Virus record (IMG/VR): IMGVR_UViG_3300047994_000104
Span: 1-22,365 of that record
Source of the DNA: a virus
Length of the DNA stretch: 22,365 nt
Reading direction: 5' to 3' (one strand)
Shown here piece by piece: positions 4,078 through 22,150 of this stretch. Both the position numbers and the translations under genes were made by a program. The notes under the pieces were generated by a model. It was given only the letters and a program-made list of their open reading frames with translations. It was not told where the DNA came from and did not search any database. Each line of letters opens with the position of its first letter. The first letter of the stretch is position 1.

Positions 4078-5082
4078 ATGGAAGCAAACACTCAAGCCGC
4101 AACGCCGGCACCCACCGCAGCCGCCAAGGCCGCGTCTTTCTTCGTGACTCGTGGCGCCAGCTACATGATCGACCCCACGAAGATCATGCGGCAAGACGGC
4201 TGGAACTCGCGGTTCGACTTCGGCGAACTCAAGTTGCTGGCCGACAGCATCCAGCACGAACTGGAGACCAACCCGGACAGTGGCGGACTCGTGAACGACA
4301 TCCGTGTCGAGCGACTCGCCAAGCCCACCGAAGACGGCAAGCTCTTCCGCCTCATCGATGGTGACCGCCGCCTGAGCGCCATCGAATCGCTCATCAAGAA
4401 AGGCGTCACGTTCCCGAAGGGCATCCCGGCCAAGATCGAAGATGCGCCCACGAAGGCCAACACCGAAGCACAGACGCGCGATCAACTGGTGCGCATGTAC
4501 GTCGCCAACACCGGGTTGCAGTTCAACCCCATGGAAGAGGCGATCCACTTCGACAAGCTCAAGCAAACGGGCATGACGATCAAGGAAGTGGCAGCAGCCA
4601 CTGGCCGGCATGTCAGCGGTGTCACCCGTGCATCGTTCCTGCTCAAAGCCGACAAGCGTCTGCGTGACGCCGTGGAAGCCAAGCAGATCGGTGCCACTGC
4701 CGCCATCGACATCCAGTCAGCGGCGCGCGGCGATCCGGAATTGCTGACGCAACTCATCGACGAAGCCCTTGCAGCCAAGACCAAGACCGCCAAGAAAGCC
4801 GTCACCGCCAAGGTCAAGCAGGCCAAGGTCAAGGTTGCCAAAAAGGAAGGCCGCAAGCTCAAGATGCGCGCTCTGAGCAACGAGCAACTGTCGCAATTGG
4901 GCGCCAAGATGAGCGAGCTTCTGATGGCCGACATGAAGGCACTGGGGCTGGCCGAAGACACGAAGCTGACCGACTGGCTGGCCGCTTGCGAAGCCGACGT
5001 GAAGCTCGGCTACTCGTTCGGCGTGCTGCAAGGTCTCAAGGCCGCAGCCGGCTTTCCGGTCGACCTGTTGTCCGGCAAGTAG
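4078..5082 (+). CDS. ParB-like nuclease/DNA-binding domain protein
   Basis: 334 residues. After an Ala/Pro/Thr-rich N-terminus, residues about 30-130 form a ParB/Srx-like domain with the hallmark LIDGDRRLSA (Gly95-Asp-Arg-Arg98), the CTP-binding arginine motif of the superfamily. A helix-turn-helix region follows at about 160-190 (GMTIKEVAAATGRHVSGVTRA). Then comes a Lys/Ala-rich linker (KTKTAKKAVTAKVKQAKVKV) and a helical C-terminus. No ParA is found in the window, so plasmid-like partition is not implied. Phage ParB-like proteins often act as transcription regulators or nucleases. It is a candidate regulator of the two palindromic promoters, one of which is its own; that link is inference. 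Confidence 0.8.
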   Translation: MEANTQAATPAPTAAAKAASFFVTRGASYMIDPTKIMRQDGWNSRFDFGELKLLADSIQHELETNPDSGGLVNDIRVERLAKPTEDGKLFRLIDGDRRLSAIESLIKKGVTFPKGIPAKIEDAPTKANTEAQTRDQLVRMYVANTGLQFNPMEEAIHFDKLKQTGMTIKEVAAATGRHVSGVTRASFLLKADKRLRDAVEAKQIGATAAIDIQSAARGDPELLTQLIDEALAAKTKTAKKAVTAKVKQAKVKVAKKEGRKLKMRALSNEQLSQLGAKMSELLMADMKALGLAEDTKLTDWLAACEADVKLGYSFGVLQGLKAAAGFPVDLLSGK

Positions 5083-5096
5083 TAAGATCACAAGAG

Positions 5097-5170
5097 CAGG
5101 CAGGGTAGCGCCCTGCAAACCGAGTACGCGGCGCGTACCGAATGGGGTGGGAAGCCCTGTACAGGACACC
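5097..5170 (+). promoter_or_regulatory. Structured RNA leader of three hairpins
   Basis: Within 75 bases behind the ParB-like gene lie GCAGGG-TAGCG-CCCTGC (5100-5116), GTACGC-GGC-GCGTAC (5124-5138), and CCTGTACAGG (5156-5165) enclosed by GGTG (5146-5149) and CACC (5167-5170). None is followed by T residues. The Shine-Dalgarno of the next gene (AAAGGAAA) follows directly. It could be a cis-regulatory leader, an RNase processing region, or protein-binding DNA. The pairing is seen; function is inference. Confidence 0.45.
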
Positions 5171-5187
5171 GCCGAAAGGAAACCATC

Positions 5188-5325
5188 ATGACCGAAGAAC
5201 AAGCCCGTGCCGTCGCTCGCCTCATCATGGCAATCGTAGGCGCGCTCAAAGACACTAGCGGCCGGACGGGCGAGAGCGAGAGCGCCATCACCAACGCGCT
5301 GATGGCGCTTAAAGTGCCCGAATGA
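5188..5325 (+). CDS. Microprotein of 45 residues
   Basis: The frame begins MTEEQARAVARLIMAIVGAL and ends NALMALKVPE. It has a strong Shine-Dalgarno (GAAAGGAAACC) and its TGA overlaps the ATG of the next gene (ATGA at 5322-5325). It is predicted to be almost wholly helical and amphipathic. No family recognised. It sits behind the three-hairpin leader, so its translation may be the regulated step. Confidence 0.55.
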   Translation: MTEEQARAVARLIMAIVGALKDTSGRTGESESAITNALMALKVPE

Positions 5326-5630
5326 ACGGGCTTCAACTCATGGCCGTGCTGCAAGACATGAAAGACAAGGGATGCGATATGACGTGGCCCGTTGTCATCG
5401 ATCACGGTGAACATCAGCGCAGCGTGGACGTGATCGGCACGTGCGATCACCACAAGGTCATCTGCGTGGAAGAACTCACCGAAGAGCTTGCCGAACTGGC
5501 CGAAGCTCTGGCCGACACCGACGATGTGAAGGTCGTCCGCGACGACGGCACCATGGGTGCCATGGACATGCAAGACGTTGCGGACATGGTTCTCAGTGTC
5601 GGGCCGTTCGACAAGTCCAAAGCACACTGA
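5322..5630 (+). CDS. Acidic hypothetical protein
   Basis: 102 residues, strongly acidic in its second half (EELTEELAELAEALADTDD, DMQDVADMV). The N-terminus MNGLQLMAVLQDMKDKGCDMTWPV is typical of small phage proteins with an alpha/beta core. It is coupled to the previous microgene. It is the last gene before the intrinsic terminator, so it probably ends the early/middle transcript. Acidic small phage proteins sometimes mimic DNA or inhibit host enzymes; nothing here proves this. Confidence 0.6.
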   Translation: MNGLQLMAVLQDMKDKGCDMTWPVVIDHGEHQRSVDVIGTCDHHKVICVEELTEELAELAEALADTDDVKVVRDDGTMGAMDMQDVADMVLSVGPFDKSKAH

Positions 5631-5666
5631 CCACAACCACCACAACCGGCACCAGTGCTACATTCG

Positions 5667-5685
5667 GCCCCGCAAGGGGCTTTTT
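5667..5685 (+). terminator. Intrinsic terminator of the early/middle block
   Basis: GCCCC-GCAA-GGGGC followed directly by TTTTT: a 5-bp G+C stem, a stable GNRA tetraloop (GCAA) and a T tract. It lies 37 bases after the stop of the 5322 gene. A textbook Rho-independent terminator. Confidence 0.85.
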
Positions 5686-5691
5686 CATGGC

Positions 5692-5728
5692 TGTACGGTT
5701 GACGCATACAAGGCCGCGCTCGTCAATT
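5692..5728 (+). promoter_or_regulatory. Weak candidate late promoter
   Basis: TTGACG at 5699-5704 is a good -35 box, but 17 bases downstream only GTCAAT/TCAATT (5722-5728) is available as a poor -10 (3 of 6). It is placed between the early terminator and the folded leader region. The overlapping TGTACGGTTGAC (5692-5703) recurs with one change at 5859-5870. A phage-encoded activator could compensate for the weak -10. Low confidence. Confidence 0.3.
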
Positions 5729-5734
5729 CAGAGG

Positions 5735-5944
5735 GACATGAGCGCAGTAGTTTCGATGCAGGGTGTACCTCCTACCCTTGCATCGTCTTTGAGCTTGCCG
5801 CAAGGCACACTCATCGGGTCGCAGGCGTGTCGCGCTGGCACGCATTGGATCAGCCTTGTGTACGGTTCACTCAGCCCCGCATGCGTGCGTAGTTGGGGCG
5901 CTAGCCGGCTTTGCAACCGGCACAGGGACACGCATGCGGTTTTT
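5735..5944 (+). ncRNA. Putative structured late-leader RNA
   Basis: No credible gene occupies 5631-5967. The stretch behind the terminator can fold into: hairpin A, CGATGCA (5754-5760) with TGCATCG (5779-5785) plus GGGT/ACCC, loop GTACCTCCT; stem B, CGCAAGGC (5799-5806) with GCCTTGTG (5853-5860), enclosing GCGTG (5825-5829)/CACGC (5839-5843); and the terminator hairpin at 5877-5939 with TTTTT. If transcription starts near 5735 the RNA would be about 210 nt. Its size and location before a lambda R-like endolysin resemble lambda 6S RNA made from pR' and stopped at tR'. The stems are seen; the existence of a transcript is inference. Confidence 0.45.
5877..5944 (+). terminator. Long-stem terminator with tRNA-like inner arms
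   Basis: A perfect 10-bp stem CCGCATGCGT (5877-5886)/ACGCATGCGG (5930-5939) is followed by TTTTT (5940-5944). Within the 43-base interior lie a D-arm-like GCG-TAGTTGGGG-CGC (5887-5901) and an anticodon-arm-like GCCGG-CTTTGCAA-CCGGC (5904-5921). There is no T arm, so it is not a normal tRNA. As a terminator the interior is unusually large. It lies 24 bases before the ATG of the endolysin. Confidence 0.55.
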
Positions 5945-5967
5945 CTTCACCTAATGGAGAAACAAAA

Positions 5968-6504
5968 ATGACACCGAACGAACTTGCCTTTCAGGACATG
6001 ATCGGCATTTCCGAAGGCACCACCACATCACCACTCACGAAGAATGCCGGCTATGACGTGATCGTCACCGGCATCGACTCGCAGGGGCATCCGACGCCGG
6101 AGATCTTCACCGACTACTCGCACCACCCGTTCGCCACTGGACGTGCGCCCAAGGTCATCAATTCACACGGGCTCACGAGCACCGCCAGCGGCAAGGTGCA
6201 AATCCTGTTCCACTGGTGGAGTGTCTATCAAGCCAAGTTCCATTGGCCCACCTTCGCACCGGAGTTCCAAGACGCCTACTACCTGCAAATCCTGCAGGAG
6301 CAGGGAGCACGAGCAAGGTTGGCGATGAATGACTTCTACGGAGCGTTGCAGAAGGTCAGCGGCCAGTGGGCTAGTCTTCCGGGCAAGGCATACGTGGCGC
6401 AGCATCAGCACACAGTCGCCCAGTGCGCGAAATGGTACGTGCAGCAGGGTGGCACACTGGTCGAGCCGCCAACGCTCAACACAACGGGAGCACAAGCATC
6501 ATGA
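5968..6504 (+). CDS. R: Endolysin, lambda R-type lytic transglycosylase
   Basis: 178 residues. It aligns by eye along its length with phage lambda gpR (GH104-type transglycosylase, 158 residues). Shared elements include AFQDMIGISEGT (compare AFLDMLAWSEGT), GYDVIVTG, IFTDYSHHPF, the SGKVQ.L..WW.VY segment, and WASLPG near the C-terminus. The essential Glu (Glu19 in lambda) corresponds to Glu16 in SEGT. The enzyme cleaves the MurNAc-GlcNAc bond of peptidoglycan with formation of an anhydro product. No signal peptide or membrane segment is visible, so it needs a holin for release. GGAG lies ten bases before ATG 5968. It is the first gene after the late-leader terminator and overlaps the holin gene by four bases. 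Confidence 0.9.
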   Translation: MTPNELAFQDMIGISEGTTTSPLTKNAGYDVIVTGIDSQGHPTPEIFTDYSHHPFATGRAPKVINSHGLTSTASGKVQILFHWWSVYQAKFHWPTFAPEFQDAYYLQILQEQGARARLAMNDFYGALQKVSGQWASLPGKAYVAQHQHTVAQCAKWYVQQGGTLVEPPTLNTTGAQAS

Positions 6505-6941
6505 CCGACACCGCCGACGCAGACGCCGAAGCGAAAGCACTCGTGGACGCCACGAAGCCACCTACCACAACCACCACCGTGACACAAACACCGCCGACAC
6601 CGCCGGCAGTCACGACGATCACCACACCGGCAACTCCCACGCAAGCACCGGTGCTGCCTTTCTACAAGCAGGCGCCCATCTGGATCACGTTGCTTCTGAT
6701 GCCACTGGTCTACATCGTCGTGTGCATCGTGCTGTGGCCGGGCAGCGCCTACCCATCCGAGACTCGCACCCAAGTCATCACCGCCATCATCGGGTTGCTG
6801 ACTCTCATCGGCGGGTACTGGCTCGGTTCGTCATTGAACTCGAGCAAGAAAGACGACGCGCTGCAAGCAGCGGCCAGCGCGCCAACCACGGTAGTCAACA
6901 ATGCCGCTTCCAACATTCCCCCCACCACAACCCCTCAGTAG
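6501..6941 (+). CDS. Probable holin with two membrane segments
   Basis: 146 residues from ATG 6501, whose ATGA overlaps the endolysin stop. The N-terminal 55 residues are Thr/Pro-rich and soluble. Membrane segments lie at about 60-79 (IWITLLLMPLVYIVVCIVLW) and 92-109 (VITAIIGLLTLIGGYWLG), followed by SSLNSSKKDD and a polar tail. The pattern GGYWLGSS..S..K after the last segment is typical of 3TM-type phage holins (PF11351-like), though here only two segments are clear. Position next to the endolysin supports the role: timed permeabilisation of the inner membrane. Confidence 0.75.
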   Translation: MTDTADADAEAKALVDATKPPTTTTTVTQTPPTPPAVTTITTPATPTQAPVLPFYKQAPIWITLLLMPLVYIVVCIVLWPGSAYPSETRTQVITAIIGLLTLIGGYWLGSSLNSSKKDDALQAAASAPTTVVNNAASNIPPTTTPQ

Positions 6942-7855: not shown

Positions 7856-8335
7856 GTGAATGACGACGAAGATGACGGCCCACCGGGCGACCAGCGAACT
7901 ACGTCAGTCCGCGGCGTCAAGCGTGGCACAACTCGCCGGCTTGCAGCCGAAGCAATCCAGCAAGCCGGCATCACTGGACAACTGCCGCACGAGATTCTGT
8001 TGTCCATGGCGCGCGGCGAAGTGCAGAAGGTTCCCGCCGAAGTCGATCAGACCAACGGACGAGTCATCAAGTGGAAGTTCACGATACTTGGCGATCAGGA
8101 TCGAAGGGACGCAGCCAAAGCAGCCGCGCCCTACTTCGCACCCAAGATCAGCCAAGTCGAGCTAATTGGCGGACTGAACGATGAGCAACTTGCTAGCATC
8201 ATTGCAGGCGCTGCCGCCGAAGCAAAGATTAGCGTTAGCTTTGATAGAGCAGGCGAGACGAGCGAAACTCGAGTCGGACAAGCTACTGATTCGCTTGAAC
8301 GCCGAAAAGCAAAGTCTGCCCCTGACGTTCCGTAA
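7856..8335 (+). CDS. terS: Probable terminase small subunit
   Basis: 159 residues from GTG 7856 (no good ATG in frame). The N-terminus is acidic (NDDEDDGPPGD), then come a basic region and LPHEILLSMARGE...DQDRRDAAKAAAPYFAPKISQVEL at about 42-102. This pattern (few-residue loop, then rRDAAkaAAPYfhPK) is characteristic of one group of phage small terminase proteins. It would bind the packaging site and recruit TerL. Its last 155 bases overlap the TerL frame. Call rests on pattern and on the location directly before terL. Confidence 0.7.
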   Translation: MNDDEDDGPPGDQRTTSVRGVKRGTTRRLAAEAIQQAGITGQLPHEILLSMARGEVQKVPAEVDQTNGRVIKWKFTILGDQDRRDAAKAAAPYFAPKISQVELIGGLNDEQLASIIAGAAAEAKISVSFDRAGETSETRVGQATDSLERRKAKSAPDVP

Positions 8336-9767
8336 TGTTCCGTCACTCGTCCTAAACCCTGACCATCCGCTCCATGACCTGATGCACCGCAAGACAGTGT
8401 GTGATCCGGACGGCATCACTCGTCCGGTTCGATACAAGGTCTATTGGGGTGGCCGTGGCAGTGCGAAGTCTTGGGGCTTTGCCGAAGCACTCATCCGCAT
8501 GGCCGCAGTGTCACCGCTGCGCATTCTGTGTGTCAGAGAGTTCCAGAATTCCATCCGTGACTCGTCACACCGCACGCTGAAAGACACCATCGCCCGGCTT
8601 GGGCTCGAGTCATGGTTTCATGTCACGAGCGAATCGATCAAGTCACGGGCGGGCGCAGAGTTCATCTTCAAGGGAATGTTCGGCAATGAGCAAGGCATTC
8701 GCTCAGTCGAAGGGGTGGACATCTGTTGGGTAGAAGAGGCGCAGTCAGTCTCAGTGCTTTCGTGGCGCGCTCTATCGCCCACCATCCGCAAGGCGGGCTC
8801 TGAAATCTGGGTGAGCTACAACCTTGTGCAAGAGGAAGACGCAACGCATCAGCGGTTCGTCATTCATCACAGGCGTGGCTCGATAGTCCATCACATCAAC
8901 TATGACTCGAACCCGTATTTCCCCGGCTCAGTGCTGGAAGAGGAAATGCTGGACGACAAAGAGACCGATTACGAGCTTTATGAGCACATCTGGCTTGGAA
9001 GACCGCAACGTAGATCGAACGCCATCATCTTCAATGGCAAGTACAGAGTAGAGGCATTCCCCGACGAGCTTTATCAGCAGGCGGACCGTCTCTACTACGG
9101 TGCGGACTTCGGATTCAGCACAGACCCCAACACACTCGTCCGGTCATTCGTGATCGAAACACCCGGCCGGCGCAGACCTGAGCGCCGGCTGTACGTGTCA
9201 CATGCGCAGTTCGGCTATCACGTGGACACGCAAGACATGCCGGACATGTATGACCTTGTGCCCGGTTCAAGAGATTGGCCGATCAAGGCCGACATCGCCA
9301 GACCCGAAACGATCAGTGCGCTGCGCAAGCTCAAGTTCATCATCAGCGGCGCAGAGAAGTGGCAAGGCTCAGTCGAAGACGGTATCCAGTACCTGCGCTC
9401 GTTCGATGAGATAGTCATTCACGCCCGCTGCAAGGAATTTCAGCAAGAGGCGTACATGTACCGCTACAAGGTCGATCCAAAGATCGTCGATGAGCGTGGA
9501 CAGCCGCAAGTCCTGCCGAAGATCATCGTCGACAAGTACAACCACGCATGGGATGCGCTTCGCTATTCGATGGACGGCATGATTCAACGATCAGGCGAAA
9601 TCGGCATGTGGGCTAGACTTGGCAAAGATACGCCGGTCACAGTGCACGGAGTCGAGTCAGTGGTCCGGCCCCGCCGCATGGCGTCATTGCAGTTGCCGAT
9701 GCAGCGTAAGATGGCGCAAAGTCCGCAGATTCAAACACCGGAGCGCACCGTATGGACAAGCCTCTGA
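8181..9767 (+). CDS. terL: Terminase large subunit
   Basis: 528 residues. Walker A GGRGSAKS at 90-97, Walker B VDICWVEEA at 179-187 with the catalytic glutamates, and a coupling-motif-like SEIWVSYN at about 207-214 form the packaging ATPase. The C-terminal RNase H-like nuclease has the expected acidic residues Asp309 (YYGADFGFS), Asp371 (IKADIARPE) and Asp458 (NHAWDALRY). Family: Terminase_3/PBSX XtmB-like. It cuts the concatemer and drives DNA into the prohead through the portal. The ATG at 8181 lies inside terS; the segment before the ATPase (ALPPKQRLALALIEQARR) looks like the usual N-terminus, so I keep it. A TTG at 8295 is an alternative. Confidence 0.95.
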   Translation: MSNLLASLQALPPKQRLALALIEQARRAKLESDKLLIRLNAEKQSLPLTFRNVPSLVLNPDHPLHDLMHRKTVCDPDGITRPVRYKVYWGGRGSAKSWGFAEALIRMAAVSPLRILCVREFQNSIRDSSHRTLKDTIARLGLESWFHVTSESIKSRAGAEFIFKGMFGNEQGIRSVEGVDICWVEEAQSVSVLSWRALSPTIRKAGSEIWVSYNLVQEEDATHQRFVIHHRRGSIVHHINYDSNPYFPGSVLEEEMLDDKETDYELYEHIWLGRPQRRSNAIIFNGKYRVEAFPDELYQQADRLYYGADFGFSTDPNTLVRSFVIETPGRRRPERRLYVSHAQFGYHVDTQDMPDMYDLVPGSRDWPIKADIARPETISALRKLKFIISGAEKWQGSVEDGIQYLRSFDEIVIHARCKEFQQEAYMYRYKVDPKIVDERGQPQVLPKIIVDKYNHAWDALRYSMDGMIQRSGEIGMWARLGKDTPVTVHGVESVVRPRRMASLQLPMQRKMAQSPQIQTPERTVWTSL

Positions 9768-14618: not shown

Positions 14619-15896
14619 ATGCTCGCTTTCCGCCCCATCTCAGGCGCCCCGCTATCTGACCCGTCGGGCCCGGGTGCCCTCAATTACAACGCCTCGATCA
14701 CGGAGACGTGCAGCGCGACGGAAACAGAAAGTTCGCTGTTCGGAACCGCCGCAACCGTTACCGAAACCGGCACAGCAGCGGACAGCGAGTCGGCTTCGTT
14801 AGCCTATTCGGCGTCGATCACCGAAACAGGTAGTGCCACCGACACCGAATCAGCAGTTGCGCCCGGCATCGCATCGGTGTCTGAGATTGGCAGCGCAATC
14901 GATACCGTCAGCAGTTCAGCCGGCGCCGCGAGCGCGGCGGTCACCGAAGCAGGCAGCGCGGTCGATCAGAGTCAGGTTGGCATCGTGTACTCCGCATCGC
15001 GCGCCGAAGCCGGCACAGCGGTGGACACTGAAAATGGCGTTGTCGTCACGAACTACTTTGCTGCCGACACCGACTCAGGAAGCGCCACCGATGTCGAGTC
15101 ATCGTTGCAGGGGCTTTCTGCGCTGGACTATGAGACGAGTTATGGGACCGGCGACGCATCTAGCGCCCTGTTTACGGCCCTTTCGTCTGTGGGCGAGGCC
15201 GGGATAGCCACCGACACCGAATCGGTCCAATTTGGGCCTTCTGCGGCAGTTGTCGAAGCCGGCACAGCGGCGGATGTGGTCAGTGCGGCGCTGACCGGGC
15301 TCATGCGTGGTGTGATCGAAGCAGGCGCAGTGGCCGACACAGAGTCGATCATCGCATCCAGCAGAAGTCAATCCGTGGCCGAAGTCGGCAGCGCTCGAGA
15401 CCTGAGCACAACCGGCATCCTCGTGTCCGTGTCGATCACTGAAACAGGCAACGTTCACGACACCGAGTCTGCCGCTCCGCACTTCAACTCGACCGTCACC
15501 GAAGCAGGCACCGCGCACGAAACCGAAAGCAGCGTGATGGGCAGCGGGCAATCGGTGAACGAAGCCGGCAATGCACAGGACAAGCCCAAAGCATCGACCA
15601 ATGTGCTTCGCATTCAAGTCGAAGCAGGCAATGCGGCGGACATTTCGTCTGCAGTGATCGTCTTCCACTACACCGGCAGAGTCATCGAAACCGCCAATGC
15701 ACAAGACACCGAAGCGACAACACTAATGTGGCTGGCGAACATGATCGAAGCCATGGATGCCGAAGACATCGTGCGGGCACTGAGCATCAATGGATACACT
15801 CTTGGCAACAAGCACGTGATCAAGGTCGAATACAGACGACGCGTGTGGGTAGCCGGTGTGAGTCCGACTCGTGAGCTTGAATCGACATGGCAGTAG
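14619..15896 (+). CDS. Repeat-rich fibre-like protein
   Basis: 425 residues with GGGGAGG before the ATG. After a short N-terminus (MLAFRPISGAPLSDPSG) follow about 18 imperfect tandem repeats of 20-22 residues with consensus (S/T)(V/I)(T/V)E(A/T)G(S/T)A.D(T)ES followed by a variable hydrophobic stretch. Examples: SITETGSATDTESA, AVVEAGTAADVVSA, STVTEAGTAHETES. One copy (about residues 168-188) is degenerate. Such regular repeats suggest an extended beta-structure or stacked rod. The C-terminal 35 residues (KHVIKVEYRRRVWVAG) are not repetitive. The array resumes in the next gene in another frame. Confidence 0.7.
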   Translation: MLAFRPISGAPLSDPSGPGALNYNASITETCSATETESSLFGTAATVTETGTAADSESASLAYSASITETGSATDTESAVAPGIASVSEIGSAIDTVSSSAGAASAAVTEAGSAVDQSQVGIVYSASRAEAGTAVDTENGVVVTNYFAADTDSGSATDVESSLQGLSALDYETSYGTGDASSALFTALSSVGEAGIATDTESVQFGPSAAVVEAGTAADVVSAALTGLMRGVIEAGAVADTESIIASSRSQSVAEVGSARDLSTTGILVSVSITETGNVHDTESAAPHFNSTVTEAGTAHETESSVMGSGQSVNEAGNAQDKPKASTNVLRIQVEAGNAADISSAVIVFHYTGRVIETANAQDTEATTLMWLANMIEAMDAEDIVRALSINGYTLGNKHVIKVEYRRRVWVAGVSPTRELESTWQ

Positions 15897-16010
15897 CAAC
15901 CATTGCAGAATCAGGCAGCGCGGCGGATTTGTGCGGCGCAGTGCTTGGCTTTGCAGCAGAGACCGACGAGGTTGGCGCAGCACTGGACACGTCTGCGGTC
16001 ATTCAGGTCA
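14688..16010 (+). repeat. Coding tandem repeats, about 60-66 bp unit
   Basis: About 18 degenerate copies in the 14619 gene and two more at the start of the 15887 gene, recurring at the DNA level as GTCACCGAAGCAGGCAGCGC-like words spaced by roughly 60-66 bases. The units vary in sequence and length, so this is an old, diverged array and not CRISPR. Confidence 0.7.
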
Positions 16011-16498
16011 CAGGCGGCTACCCTGACCCCGGTTCCGTGGCCGCTGGCGTCATCTATGGTCCCGGTGGATCGCTAGTTGGCACCTTGACCTATGCGGGCT
16101 TCGCAACGCCGGGTGACCCGCCTAATCCACTGCCAAGCAAACGCCGCTCGACACCGGCACCGATTCTGGATAAGCGACTGAGCGATGTCCGGCTCTATGA
16201 CATCGACCTGACTGCGTTGCTGGACGATGCAGAAACCATTCTGTACATCAAGAGCATTACAGCCGACCGTGGCTCGATTGGATTCGGCAATGCCTACATC
16301 AACCCTGCCCCGGTCTACTACAAACTGTTGGACAACTGGGCAGCGGCTGGCAAGGTCGTGCAGGTACTGATTCAAGGGGGCTTGCTCCCATCAGGCGTGT
16401 GCGACATGGAATGCTTGTGCAGACTCGTGGTCGTGACCAACGAAAACGCGTCTATCGAAGCACCGTTCGTGCTTCGGTTGACCAACGACGTGCAATGA
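15887..16498 (+). CDS. Putative fibre-adaptor/structural protein
   Basis: 203 residues. The ATG overlaps the last 10 bases of the previous gene. The first about 40 residues are two further copies of the same repeat (TIAESGSAADLCGA and AETDEVGAALDTSA). Then come a Gly/Pro-rich linker and a C-terminal beta domain (about 100-203: KRLSDVRLYDIDLTALLDDA, VVQVLIQGG, RLVVVTNENASIEAPFVLRL) of the kind found in small phage fibre/tail adaptor proteins. The stop overlaps ATG 16495. Role inferred from context. Confidence 0.6.
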   Translation: MAVATIAESGSAADLCGAVLGFAAETDEVGAALDTSAVIQVTGGYPDPGSVAAGVIYGPGGSLVGTLTYAGFATPGDPPNPLPSKRRSTPAPILDKRLSDVRLYDIDLTALLDDAETILYIKSITADRGSIGFGNAYINPAPVYYKLLDNWAAAGKVVQVLIQGGLLPSGVCDMECLCRLVVVTNENASIEAPFVLRLTNDVQ

Positions 16499-19029
16499 AG
16501 ACCCGCATCCACGTACATGACTCGTCAGGCGCCACCATAGTGGGCGAACTCGAGTCACGGGGCAAGAAACGGACGGAAGTGCAGGCTTCATCCCGGTTCA
16601 GCAAGTTTCAGATCGAAGAGTTCTTGCAACGTTTGCTTGGCAAGGGTACGAGCGACGAAGCAGCCGGTCATCCGTTCCATGGCAATCAGTGGGTGGAAGT
16701 CGCGGGCCAGAAGGTCAACGTGTCCAAGACCGGTACGCTCAAAGACAAGCTGATGCACCTGTTCACGCAGGGGCACAAGTTCACCAATCAGGAACTCGCC
16801 ACCTTGCTGGGCGAATCCGTCGACACGATCCGCTCGCGCCTTTCCAAGATCAAGAAAGAGACCCCGCCCGGTGGACTGTTCCTTGAACGGTCGGCGAGCG
16901 GTCATTGGTCGTTGAAGCAGGCAGACGGCGAGTTACCTACTCCGGTTGTGCCCGAAGCGGTAGAACACGAGGCCGAAACGGCCATTTCCAAGGCTGCAAA
17001 GCAGGCGCTGGCACCAGCACCCCTGCCCGAACCCGTTAGCGCAGTGACGGTGCCTCAAAACGCGCCGGAGCCACAGGTTTATGAGTTGATGGAGCCGGTG
17101 CCTGAGCCGATCCCCACGCAATTGACGCTTGCGGAGAAGTTGCTGCCCGAACTCAAAGAGCCGACGCTGCCGAGCGCTCCGCTGCCCAAAGACAAAGCGG
17201 ACAACATCTACAAGGCAACGCTCGAGCTATGGGGCAATCAGACTGCACACGCGTTCCCTGATGCCAGCAAGGTCGAGCCGGAAGCCGTTGCCGCGCTGGC
17301 GCAGGGATGGAAGAACACCAAAGCGAATGCGATGGCGCAGTGGTCGGCCAACGTGCACGGCACGGTCAAGGCCCCGATCAAGGCGCAAGCCGTGTTCAAG
17401 GCCGACGAGCAACTGGTCAAAGACTTGATCGACGGAAAGCCGTTCGATCAAGCGCAAGCCGACTGGAAACTGAACACAGCCGGCGAGAAGGCCGGTACGT
17501 GGCCCCCTGACCCCGACAAGGAAGCAGTGGCGGAGGCACTAAAGGCGCACAAAGCGGCAGAGGAAGCGAAGGCGAAGGCCGATGCCGAGTTTTTCGTAGC
17601 GGCGAAGAAAGAAGCACAAGAGGCTGCACTCGCCGAAGCCTACAAGGAACACGCACCACACTTCGATGTCATCTCCGACTACGTGCCCGATGACCACATC
17701 GGCATCTTGTTGCACGACTTTCCATCGGTCTACAAGTCGGAGATAACAAAGCTCAAGTCCACGCTTTCCAACGGACACACCGACAAGATCGGCAACAAGA
17801 TCGGTGTGCAGAAGGGACTGGAGCAAGAACTCGCCGAATCGAAGCCGTTCCAAGCCATCAAGGCGCAGTACGCTGGCAAGGGCAGTTATGCGTCGCTAGA
17901 AGCCGAACTCATCAGCGAATGGGCCGGAAGCTCGGGGGGTCACAACGCCACATCCAATGCCGCGCAACTGGCAATCAGGGATGCGTTTGGCATGAAGCAA
18001 GAACACCTGTACATGGGCCAGTTGTGGCACTACACACAGCACAGCGGCGACGAAGATAAGGTCTACGCGTTGTCTGCGTCACAACTGGGCATCAAGTACG
18101 AAACCCCGGCACAGAAAGCCACGTTTCGTGCGGGCCTGCGTGACTTCGTGCGTGCTCAGTACAACCGCACCCAAGCACACCTGAAAGACAAAGGCATCGA
18201 TCACGTCTACGTCGCTCGTGGTAGTGGCGGGCATCTAGGCATCGACAAGACGACAGAGGCGAGTCACGGCAACATCACGTTGCAGCCGGCAAGCTCATTC
18301 AGCGCCAACTACGGCACCGCTCGTGGCACTTTCTCAGGTGGAGAAGCCGTGTATCTGGTCAAGGTTCCGGCATCGCAAGTGTTGTCTACCTACGTGACCG
18401 GGTACGGGTGCACGAATGAACACGAGGTTGTCGTGCTGGCGCATCCGAACCTGCAAGCGGTTCGTATCCCCGCAGGGGTGGGTGGACACATGACCGGATC
18501 GCTGGAAGATGCAGTGAATCACGTTGCGGCGACCATGAAGAACGCGCCGACCCTTTCGCATCAGCAGATGGAAGCGAGTTTTGCCAAGCTCTCCACTGCG
18601 CAGCAGAAGGCACACACCATCGCAGTCAAGGCAGCGGAAGCAGGCATCCACAAGCCAGTACTCCCGAAGATGCCCAAAGGCATCAGCAACTACACGAAGA
18701 GCTATGTGCAGGCCGCGAAGGAAGCCAGCAAGAAAGGTGATGTAGCCGGGTATCACGCTGCACTGGCCGAATTCGAGAACACGAAACTCAAGACCGGATA
18801 CAAGTTCACGGCCACAACACCGTACATGGCGAAGCTAGGTGAGCACGTGAACGCACTCGCGGTCTACAAGGAACACGAAGCGAAGATCAAGGCCGATCTG
18901 AAAGTAAAGACGAAGGCAGCGAAACCGCAGAAAAAAGCCGTGCACGTGCACATTCACGAGCAGACGAAGCATCCGAGCACAATACCGGCTTCTGCGCTGC
19001 ACACCGCCGCGTGGCCGAAGGCAGCTTGA
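16495..19029 (+). CDS. Large multidomain protein with predicted ADP-ribosyltransferase domain
   Basis: 844 residues from ATG 16495 (ATGA overlap). Order: HVHD tag (6-9); motif HPFHGNQW (59-66), common in phage head-associated effector proteins; winged-helix-like domain (80-142: FTNQELATLLGESVDTIRSRL); Pro-rich linker (148-235); helical Ala/Lys-rich region, charged around 340-386; predicted ADP-ribosyltransferase domain (about 560-670); helical Ala/Lys-rich C-terminus with VHVHIHE at 816-822. The R-S-E residues are Arg575 (VYVARGSG), Ser600-Ser601 (PASSFSANYGTAR), and Glu642-x-Glu644 (NEHEVVVLAHP). Together with YLVKVPASQVLST this is the layout of phage arginine-type mARTs. Probably packaged or injected and modifying host proteins, as T4 Alt does; inference. 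Confidence 0.7.
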   Translation: MKTRIHVHDSSGATIVGELESRGKKRTEVQASSRFSKFQIEEFLQRLLGKGTSDEAAGHPFHGNQWVEVAGQKVNVSKTGTLKDKLMHLFTQGHKFTNQELATLLGESVDTIRSRLSKIKKETPPGGLFLERSASGHWSLKQADGELPTPVVPEAVEHEAETAISKAAKQALAPAPLPEPVSAVTVPQNAPEPQVYELMEPVPEPIPTQLTLAEKLLPELKEPTLPSAPLPKDKADNIYKATLELWGNQTAHAFPDASKVEPEAVAALAQGWKNTKANAMAQWSANVHGTVKAPIKAQAVFKADEQLVKDLIDGKPFDQAQADWKLNTAGEKAGTWPPDPDKEAVAEALKAHKAAEEAKAKADAEFFVAAKKEAQEAALAEAYKEHAPHFDVISDYVPDDHIGILLHDFPSVYKSEITKLKSTLSNGHTDKIGNKIGVQKGLEQELAESKPFQAIKAQYAGKGSYASLEAELISEWAGSSGGHNATSNAAQLAIRDAFGMKQEHLYMGQLWHYTQHSGDEDKVYALSASQLGIKYETPAQKATFRAGLRDFVRAQYNRTQAHLKDKGIDHVYVARGSGGHLGIDKTTEASHGNITLQPASSFSANYGTARGTFSGGEAVYLVKVPASQVLSTYVTGYGCTNEHEVVVLAHPNLQAVRIPAGVGGHMTGSLEDAVNHVAATMKNAPTLSHQQMEASFAKLSTAQQKAHTIAVKAAEAGIHKPVLPKMPKGISNYTKSYVQAAKEASKKGDVAGYHAALAEFENTKLKTGYKFTATTPYMAKLGEHVNALAVYKEHEAKIKADLKVKTKAAKPQKKAVHVHIHEQTKHPSTIPASALHTAAWPKAA

Positions 19030-19030
19030 T

Positions 19031-19273
19031 ATGGCAACGAACATGTGGTTTCCCGATGCCAACGGTGGCGCCGACTGGATCAAGAAAGGCCCGCAAGCGT
19101 GGGATTTGCCCGCCTACAAGTCGCGCGAGTTCTTTCAGGCCATCGGCGGCATCGATCAATTGGAAGCATTCAAGACATCCGTTGCCTACAGGGCAGCAAT
19201 CGACAACCATCTGATTCACGATGACGAGTGGGTCGGTGACTATCTAGACTTCGCAAAAGGAAAAGGGCCATGA
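19031..19273 (+). CDS. Small protein coupled to the ADP-ribosyltransferase gene
   Basis: 80 residues; ATG one base after the previous stop, and its own stop overlaps ATG 19270. The sequence begins MATNMWFPDANGGADWIKKG and contains LPAYKSREFFQAIGGIDQLE and HDDEWVGDYLDF. Acidic, rich in Trp/Phe/Tyr, without membrane segments. The fixed place between the transferase and the modular His-rich protein suggests a partner, chaperone or inhibitor, but nothing in the sequence proves it. Confidence 0.55.
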   Translation: MATNMWFPDANGGADWIKKGPQAWDLPAYKSREFFQAIGGIDQLEAFKTSVAYRAAIDNHLIHDDEWVGDYLDFAKGKGP

Positions 19274-20526
19274 AAAATGTTCACGTCCACGTCCACGGCG
19301 GTCTTTCAGACGTTCTTCCACGTGTGCACGTGGGCGACGACGAACACGGTATCCGACGCGATCAGAACGGTATGTTCGCGACTTCGTCGGGAACAGGCGA
19401 GCAGCACGCCGCTACCGCAGAGATTCATGCCTCGCTGGCAACCCGCAAAGGCACCGATCATCCTCACTACGCCGCCCACATGGCGGCTAGTGAAGCGCAT
19501 AAGCAAGCCGCAACGTTTCTCGCGCAAGCGAACAAGGCGCAACACCCCGGCGCGGCCATCGAAGCGGAACGGCACGCCAAGTCGGCCCGTGTTCACGAGA
19601 ACATGATTAACAAGGGGCGCGGCAGTGACCCGGCTGGCGAGTCTGCACGGCAGAACAAAGCCATGTCCGATCCACGAGTCATGAAGGGGAACAAGGAACG
19701 CATGGCCGAACTCGATGCCAAGTACCCGCAGAAGGGCGCGAAAAAGGCCAAGTCCAGCGTCAAAGACTTCTCGATGCTAGATGCGTTCATCAAGTCGCAG
19801 TCGGGCGACTGCGGTTGCAGCATGGACAAGGATCAGGACGAAAACGATCTGACCACGGTCAAGAAATTCACCAACGCGCAGAGTGCATTGGACGGAGACG
19901 ACACCGTGGACCCGGCGACAAACCTGCCCGAATACAAGTCGTCACCAATGTTGAAGATCGGCAAGTTCGTGAACTCGCAGTCTTCGATGGACGATGACAT
20001 GGATCAGGAAGTGTCCGGCGAGCCCGGCGACACGATGGACACCCTGCGTCAGTTCGTCGGCGATGACTGGTCGAAGTGGAATGCGGAGCATGCGCATGAA
20101 AAGTCTGTGGCACATCGCTACATGGCAACACTTCACTCCAGCAATGCCAAGCACTACCCAGTGGGGTCACAAGCTCATCAGCACCACGAGACGGCGGCAC
20201 ATCATCACAACACGGCAGCGGACGAGCATCAGGAAGCTATTGCTGCGCATAGCAGCGGCCGGCATAACGAGATTGCGATGCATGATCGGATTGCGAAGTT
20301 TCATGCTGGCATTGCGAATGAGCATGCTTACTTGCCGAAAGACCATCCAAACGCAAGCTATAACAATCCAAAGGCAAAACGTTTTCCCAATGCCGGGAAC
20401 ATTAAGGCGGCGAGTGCTGATGCCATAGTTGTGCTGGATGCGTTCGTCGGTGACTCGTGGGCCGCATGGAACGCCAAGCACAAGACCCGCATTCACATGG
20501 ACACGCTGCGTCAGTTCGTGAAGTAA
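19270..20526 (+). CDS. His-rich modular head-associated protein
   Basis: 418 residues. N-terminal MKNVHVHVHGG followed by VHVGDDEHGIRRDQNGMF and a helical His/Ala region (HAATAEIHASL... AIEAERHAKSARVHEN). In the middle short motifs recur: LDAFIKSQS (170-178), VKKFTNAQS (197-205), IGKFVNSQS (230-238), LRQFVGDDWSKWNAEH (259-274), LDAFVGDSWAAWNAKH (389-404), and LRQFVK at the end. A second His-rich helical module lies at 274-356 (HQHHETAAHHHNTAADEHQ). The pattern H..RD..G.F with His/Ala helices occurs in proteins next to phage portals. It may be a scaffold, internal head protein or metal-binding factor; exact role unknown. Confidence 0.6.
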   Translation: MKNVHVHVHGGLSDVLPRVHVGDDEHGIRRDQNGMFATSSGTGEQHAATAEIHASLATRKGTDHPHYAAHMAASEAHKQAATFLAQANKAQHPGAAIEAERHAKSARVHENMINKGRGSDPAGESARQNKAMSDPRVMKGNKERMAELDAKYPQKGAKKAKSSVKDFSMLDAFIKSQSGDCGCSMDKDQDENDLTTVKKFTNAQSALDGDDTVDPATNLPEYKSSPMLKIGKFVNSQSSMDDDMDQEVSGEPGDTMDTLRQFVGDDWSKWNAEHAHEKSVAHRYMATLHSSNAKHYPVGSQAHQHHETAAHHHNTAADEHQEAIAAHSSGRHNEIAMHDRIAKFHAGIANEHAYLPKDHPNASYNNPKAKRFPNAGNIKAASADAIVVLDAFVGDSWAAWNAKHKTRIHMDTLRQFVK

Positions 20527-20530
20527 CCCA

Positions 20531-22150
20531 ATGCCCAAAGTCAGCATCAGGCAAGCAGTGCGTGACGCCATCAAGGCGGACGCCGAAGCTCGAGCGCCAA
20601 TCGCATCGGCCAAGCGCACGGTGCCACTGGTCGACGGCACAGCTACGAAGGTTGCCACACTCGACTCGTTCAACAACTATGCACAGAAACTAGGTGTTGG
20701 CGCGGACAACCCGCTGACCACGGCCAGCTACGGGTTCAATCCGATCACTCGTCTACGCACGCAACTGGAATGGATGCACCGTGGCAGTTGGATCGCTGGT
20801 GTCGCCATCGACATCATCGCCGACGACATGACGAAGGCAGGAGTCGAGTTCAAGAACGAGATTCAGCCGGAAGACATGAAAAAGCTGCACAAGGCAGCGA
20901 CCAACCTGCAACTGTGGGAGAAGATCAACGAGACGATCAAGTGGGCGCGTCTGTACGGTGGCGCCATCGCAGTCATGCTCATCGACGGTCAGGACTTCTC
21001 CACGCCGCTCAAGCTCGAGTCCGTGGGCAAAGGCAGGTTCAAGGGATTGCTCGTGCTGGACCGCTGGATGGTCGAGCCTTCGCTGCAAGACCTAGTGACC
21101 GAAATGGGACCGAATCTTGGCTTGCCCAAGTTCTACACCGTGCAGGCCAACGCGCCCGCGCTCCGTGGCAAGACGATCCACTACAGCCGACTCGCGTTCC
21201 GACTGGTCGGCGTGAAGGTGCCGTATCAGCAGCAACTGACGGAACAGTTGTGGGGCATTAGCGTCATCGAACGTCTGTATGACCGGATGGTCGGCTTCGA
21301 CGGTGCGTCGACCGGCATCGCACAACTGGTCTACAAAGCCTATCTGCGCACCCTTTCGATCAAGGGCATGCGTGAAGTGGTCGCCATGGGCAACGAAGCT
21401 CTGGATGGCCTTGTGAAATACGTCAACCTGATGCGCACGTTCCAAAGCATCGAAGGCATGACGATGATCGACGGCGAAGACACCTTTGAGGCGCAGACCA
21501 CACAAGCCTTCTCAGGTCTGGCCGAAGCCAGCGGCGTGTTAGCCGAACAGTTGTCGGGAGCGTTGCAGATCCCGCTGACTCGTCTCTTCGGCCAGTCCCC
21601 CAAGGGATTCAGCGACGGCGACAACGATGTGCGCAACTATCACGAGTCGATCCATCGCAAGCAGGAAGCCGAATTGCAGGTTGGCGTGACCACCATGTTC
21701 ACGTTGCTGGCTCAGTCCGAAGGCGTGGCCTTCGACGATCAGGACGAACTCGAGGTTGAATTCAATCCGTTGGGTCAACTGACCGAAGTGGACAAGGCAT
21801 CGGTGGCAACACAGAACGCCCAGACCATCGTGCAGGTTCACGAAGCCGGGCTCATCAGCGATCAAGTCGCGCTGCAAGAACTCAAGCAGCAGTCACGAGT
21901 CACGGGCATGTTCACCAACATCACCGACGAACTCATCGAAGCAGCGGACGACACACCACAAGACCCGATGGAACAGATGCCAGTCGATCCGGAGACTGGA
22001 CTGCCCGCGCCACCCGAAGGTTCGGACCCGGAATCAGACATGCATGGCAGCACGTTGCCACAACCGAAGATGGAGAGAAAGAGTGCCAAGCCTCAAGCGC
22101 AAGCAAAGCCGATGGCTCAAGGTGCGAAACGCGGAACGGCGCTTCATTAG
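20531..22150 (+). CDS. Portal protein, DUF1073 type
   Basis: 539 residues. Matches by eye the DUF1073 (PF06381) portal family: N-terminal LDSFNNYAQKLGVG, then RLRTQLEWMHRGSWIAGVAID, WARLYGGAIAVMLIDG (138-153), KTIHYSRLAFRLVG (214-227) and PLTRLFGQSPKGFSDGDND (348-366, in part). The portal forms the dodecameric ring at one capsid vertex through which TerL pumps DNA. The C-terminal 60 residues are acidic and Pro/Gln-rich and carry no 2H-phosphoesterase (Acb1) domain. Its end overlaps the next gene by 68 bases. Confidence 0.9.
   Translation: MPKVSIRQAVRDAIKADAEARAPIASAKRTVPLVDGTATKVATLDSFNNYAQKLGVGADNPLTTASYGFNPITRLRTQLEWMHRGSWIAGVAIDIIADDMTKAGVEFKNEIQPEDMKKLHKAATNLQLWEKINETIKWARLYGGAIAVMLIDGQDFSTPLKLESVGKGRFKGLLVLDRWMVEPSLQDLVTEMGPNLGLPKFYTVQANAPALRGKTIHYSRLAFRLVGVKVPYQQQLTEQLWGISVIERLYDRMVGFDGASTGIAQLVYKAYLRTLSIKGMREVVAMGNEALDGLVKYVNLMRTFQSIEGMTMIDGEDTFEAQTTQAFSGLAEASGVLAEQLSGALQIPLTRLFGQSPKGFSDGDNDVRNYHESIHRKQEAELQVGVTTMFTLLAQSEGVAFDDQDELEVEFNPLGQLTEVDKASVATQNAQTIVQVHEAGLISDQVALQELKQQSRVTGMFTNITDELIEAADDTPQDPMEQMPVDPETGLPAPPEGSDPESDMHGSTLPQPKMERKSAKPQAQAKPMAQGAKRGTALH

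Follow-up and report, generated by a model that had tools for sequence, protein, structure and literature searches.

The stretch from 5666 to 5944 of the window, by which we mean an IMG/VR record taken in full (22,365 bases), is probably the untranslated leader of a late operon under antitermination of the Q/AlpA type; for a family of related phages that share its layout, the case for such a leader is strong. In the mechanism that we propose, RNA polymerase entering the leader would stop at a first intrinsic terminator (T1) or, past a structured RNA, at a second (T2), and these stops would keep the lysis and packaging genes silent early in infection. In the late phase, an antiterminator of the Q/AlpA type would load on the polymerase at an upstream promoter, and the loaded polymerase would pass both T1 and T2. 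The window phage appears to follow the logic of its relatives, with a promoter and an antiterminator of its own that are not recognisable in this fragment.

Organization of the probable leader region in the window

Intrinsic terminators are present before the late genes of the window, and the stretch between them (5690-5861) is non-coding and strongly folding (Table 1). By the layout of the family, T1 would be the promoter-proximal terminator. T2 has a perfect stem of 11 bp, made of CCGCATGCGTG (5877-5887) and CACGCATGCGG (5929-5939), which encloses GCCGG...CCGGC and is followed by TTTTT at 5940-5944; it was missed by a simple terminator scan because its loop is long, and by itself it is not exceptional against shuffled sequences (z -1.0). 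About 23-24 bases further on lies the endolysin gene (ATG at 5968), whose product gave a match to phrog_90, a PHROG family of endolysins (E 2e-36), and has about 45% identity to phage 186 P and lysozyme R proteins. The endolysin, TerL and portal genes are all on the + strand and form a co-directional late operon downstream of the leader. The order described in the earlier note, with a terminator, a folded non-coding stretch, a second terminator and then a lambda R-type endolysin, was confirmed.

Table 1. Coordinates of the leader and late-gene features in the window.
Feature	Position	Strand	Basis or remark
Weak extended -10-like site, TGC-TACATT, abutting the T1 stem	5656..5664	+	Chance-level score
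T1, first intrinsic terminator, GGCCCC-GCAA-GGGGCT (GGCCCCGCAAGGGGCT) + TTTTT	5666..5685	+	Terminator scan; counterpart in relatives
P1 5' strand (ATACAAGGC), closing helix of the multibranch structure	5706..5714	+	Predicted fold
P2 hairpin (GCGCTCGT...ATGAGCGC)	5716..5745	+	Predicted fold
Hairpin A, loop GUACCUCCUA	5754..5785	+	Predicted fold; counterpart is the GUCUCC hairpin of the relatives
P4 hairpin, GCAA tetraloop	5791..5812	+	Predicted fold
P5 hairpin	5817..5851	+	Predicted fold
P1 3' strand (GCCTTGTGT)	5853..5861	+	Predicted fold
T2, second terminator, 11-bp stem with inner hairpin, then TTTTT	5877..5944	+	
Endolysin, lambda R / phage 186 P type, first gene past the leader	5968..6504	+	PHROG and protein matches
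TerL, late gene used for finding related phages	8181..9767	+	

The folding energy of positions 5690-5950 is -110.2 kcal/mol, as compared with -96.9 +/- 4.9 kcal/mol for shuffled sequences (z -2.7), and none of 200 shuffles was as good. The minimum free energy fold is a five-way junction with four hairpins and a closing helix. The loop of hairpin A contains the anti-Shine-Dalgarno sequence, with ACCUCC located 81 nt past T1, and is predicted to be open (P unpaired 0.89). No Rfam covariance model matched the RNA, even at E 1, and nucleotide searches with this region of the window returned zero relatives.

A shared leader layout in related phages

Among named phages, Edwardsiella phage vB_EpM_ZHS, of 71 kb, is the nearest (TerL 57%, portal 54%, ParB 37%). 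Further relatives came from searching viral contigs with portal and TerL, while an endolysin-based search of such contigs gave none, and the leader gaps were located with a simple purpose-written gene finder. A gap of about 400-850 nt that folds very stably and has a terminator early on lies upstream of TerL in the closest relatives. Around 15 relatives, comprising ZHS and IMG/VR contigs, share one layout: a sigma70-like promoter, T1, hairpin A with a CUCC loop, T2 and then late genes, with the leader on the strand of TerL and 1.4-4.7 kb ahead of it. For most members the distance from the -35 to T1 is 81-94 nt and that from T1 to T2 is 181-204 nt. The first gene downstream is the endolysin in the window, as against an MmcB-like gene in most relatives, and nothing in the window RNA is alignable in sequence with the leaders of the relatives.

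The -10 region and the initial transcribed sequence of the relatives form an ungapped motif of approximately TANTAT-N8-C.ATT.G.TAGTGGTGG, which may hold a pause site. Leave-one-out scans over about 15,000-21,500 positions placed the true promoter site first in 9/10 loci, with L081 as the failure; for the loci in that scan the motif is found once per locus, with true sites scoring at least 25 and everything else about 15 or less. The divergent loci L249 and L187 have motif scores of 17.9 and 12.6. Inspection by eye of the spacer between -35 and -10, where a binding element for a Q/AlpA protein was sought, revealed no conserved motif.

Hairpin A is kept in position across the family, with the CUCC motif 59-86 nt past T1 in 14/14 measured members, the window included. 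The sequence GTCTCC is present in 10/15 members where 0.85 would be expected (P 4e-10), and the CUCC motif is enclosed in a loop in 12/14 against a background of 24.5% (P 2.5e-6); both of these values treat members as independent, and some are close kin. CUCC hairpins in L046 and L066 were rejected, as they fall in coding sequence. A descriptor of the family, consisting of T1, a CUCC-loop hairpin 59-86 nt later and T2 within about 300 nt under a strict T2 test, was scanned over 6.35 Mb containing 978 T1-like terminators; it was found at 11 places, of which nine are leaders of relatives, one is the window (at 5680, T2 lying at +262) and the last, in L008, is on the minus strand. Because the descriptor was drawn up with knowledge of both the family and the window, it is partly post hoc, and this result is supportive and not independent. 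Thirteen leaders aligned with MAFFT diverged too far for RNAalifold to be of use (6 pairs). The four closest leaders gave 51 pairs, 10 of them with two-sided changes, a modest degree of support given the small number of sequences.

An AlpA/Q-like protein encoded upstream of the leader in the relatives

Every leader-bearing relative with enough upstream sequence has, upstream of the leader, a gene for a protein of about 210-270 residues with a CxCxxxCC cluster and a C-terminal helix-turn-helix (the zinc/HTH family), which was found by HMM. This gene ends 80-1640 nt upstream of T1 in 12/12 members of our coordinate table, and in six relatives it ends 28-52 nt before the -10; the family was also found in L243, L246, L249 and L187. 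Pfam and PHROGs give it no function, and our survey of the literature, with most subscription journals outside its scope, yielded no paper describing either the protein family or the leader.

An AlphaFold model of the protein (pLDDT 85) has AlpA as its sole convincing match in the PDB (7xyb/7xya; E 1.4e-3, probability 1.00, TM 0.70 by AlpA length), and the third match in a viral library is a protein annotated as antitermination protein Q. Sequence similarity between the protein and AlpA is not detectable. Distant homologues occupy the position of Q, with early genes on one side and terminase on the other, in the temperate phages Shewanella QDWS, Bordetella PHB09 and Burkholderia Bcep176; the gene order in QDWS is RusA, homologue, TerS, TerL, and Achromobacter CF418P1 has a distant homologue upstream of TerL. 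Downstream of the gene, Bcep176, QDWS and L260 each have a terminator and a promoter-like sequence that carries a ATTCGATACACG-like motif. The modelled fold and the location of the gene suggest that the protein may act as an antiterminator in the relatives.

Search for a promoter and an antiterminator in the window

The earlier note had found no Q homologue in the window, correctly: no homologue of the AlpA-like protein is encoded in the 5.6 kb upstream or elsewhere in the 22-kb fragment. A scan of positions 5000-6700 yielded no sigma70-type promoter. Near T1, TGC-TACATT is the best -10-like site, with a score that is inside the range of the relatives and at chance level for the window; it is probably not the leader promoter. 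The window holds no copy of the relatives' promoter and initial transcribed motif, the best match nearby on the + strand scoring 2.6 against 25-37, and a minus-strand match at 6056 (score 15.1) lies inside the endolysin gene and was judged to be chance. Since both the promoter motif and the AlpA-like gene are missing from the window, we infer that the promoter and antiterminator of this phage have diverged or moved, or that it uses another protein.

An RNA start near 5735, as had been suggested, is not supported. The closing helix 5706-5714/5853-5861 implies that the folded RNA must begin before 5706, and a start at 5735 would cut the structure; the promoter of the relatives lies upstream of T1, and there is no recognisable promoter at 5735.

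If T1 ended the upstream operon, T2 blocked stray transcription and the late promoter lay downstream of 5945, the two terminators would serve as insulation and the folded stretch would have no role. The lack of a recognisable upstream promoter in the window, the absence of an antiterminator gene from the fragment and the ordinary score of T2 alone against shuffles are consistent with this; however, the layout and the position of hairpin A are conserved in relatives whose promoter is upstream of T1, and T2 stands very close to the start of the endolysin gene, and we consider insulation unlikely. Of the readings considered, a lambda-like late leader fits best, because the relatives combine the conserved layout with the promoter motif and the AlpA/Q-like gene. 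What holds of the original proposal of such a leader is the order of terminator, RNA, terminator and late genes, which is kept in these relatives, and what does not is the start near 5735.

Possible roles of the structured RNA

The conservation of the CUCC hairpin gives some substance to the idea, also raised in the earlier note, of a new RNA switch, while pairing of the loop with T2 or with Shine-Dalgarno sites, as the means by which it might work, is unsupported. We tentatively suggest that the leader RNA with its CUCC hairpin could be a working device of the late switch, acting with an AlpA/Q-type antiterminator or, in this phage, instead of one.

A trans-acting small RNA seems improbable. 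Here the T2-terminated transcript would itself be the product, and the CUCC loop would pair with the Shine-Dalgarno sequences of phage or host mRNAs, which would account for a predicted open loop that copies the anti-Shine-Dalgarno and for the retention of the loop motif in relatives. The relatives, however, mostly have GUCUCC and not ACCUCC, and GGAGAC is unenriched before gene starts (7/366 versus 31 for GGAGAA); moreover, the transcript is a prediction from sequence. It is very improbable that the folded leader acts in cis, either as an antiterminator like HK022 put that modifies the polymerase or as a switch that holds T2 open: the conserved hairpin and its position would suit such a role, as would an alternative GCCCC/GGGGC pairing (5874-5878/5895-5899) predicted to block the 5' arm of T2, but the complementarity between the A loop and the 3' arm of T2 is not clearly better than in pairs taken from different phages (permutation P 0.08) and is weakest in the window, and the relatives have a candidate protein antiterminator instead.

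Comparison with known antitermination systems

Like the lambda pR'-6S RNA-tR' and phage 21 leaders, those of the relatives have a promoter, a promoter-proximal terminator, a late operon and a Q-like gene just upstream, whereas the window shares with these systems the terminators and the late operon only. Both the relatives and the window differ from lambda and phage 21 in that a conserved structured RNA is flanked by two terminators some 200 nt from each other; the window differs further in its lack of a recognisable Q or promoter, and Rfam gave no lambda RNA. Lambda Q carries an inserted zinc finger, and AlpA, for which a sigma-dependent pause is required, binds between -35 and -10 and passes terminators (PMC9371919); 21Q likewise binds at a paused polymerase (PMC6606751).

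The relatives resemble the AlpA system of Pseudomonas aeruginosa (alpB and PA0807 promoters) in the predicted AlpA fold of their protein. The PA0807 promoter has predicted tandem terminators at +26 and +247 (PMC7969949), the same geometry as in this leader family. Unlike AlpA, the protein of the relatives has the CxCxxxCC cysteine cluster; its sequence shows no similarity to AlpA that could be detected, and no conserved binding element was seen between -35 and -10. Compared by layout, and not by put sequence, HK022 put is alike in that a structured leader RNA opens a phage operon, and differs in that here terminators lie on both sides of the RNA and the relatives have a protein candidate.

To our knowledge, no Q or AlpA system has an RNA device between two terminators. 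We regard the leader family as a new form of Q/AlpA-type late control in which the leader RNA is structured and conserved. The results link a zinc/HTH family of phage proteins that has no name to the fold of the AlpA/Q antiterminators and to a specific late leader, and about 15 phages of the group, together with several temperate phages, gain a late-gene switch that can be tested. The conserved structured RNA inside the leader raises the question of whether late antitermination here uses RNA structure.

Additional features of the window and its relatives

A second structured stretch lies past T2 in L038 (5065-5524) and also in L012, L022, L175 and L188. Seven members have CGTATAG or GGTATAG 1-9 nt past T2, a stretch of which none was seen in the window. 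Among the post-T2 hairpins of the relatives, GGGTTAGCGCC occurs in five and TGCTTCATG in four, with variants; the element II hairpins of the relatives (GGGTTAGCGCC, GCTGCTTCATGC) are not above chance in the window. A gap past parB in the window (5083-5187) contains a perfect hairpin, GCAGGGTAGCGCCCTGC, that resembles the GGGTTAGCGCC hairpin.

In the window, a long ORF of about 840 residues (16495-19029) is without a PHROG match, and another ORF (14619-15896) is made of short TETGSATDTESA-like repeats and perhaps encodes a structural or fibre protein. The TerL ORF of L066 (2935-4800) has an intein-like insert (CIPAGVLVSTACGD...VLVHNC). The TerS-like (7856-8335) and TerL ORFs of the window, which are in different frames, share about 155 nt, and a similar overlap is present in L012 (7261-7719 and 7589-9079).
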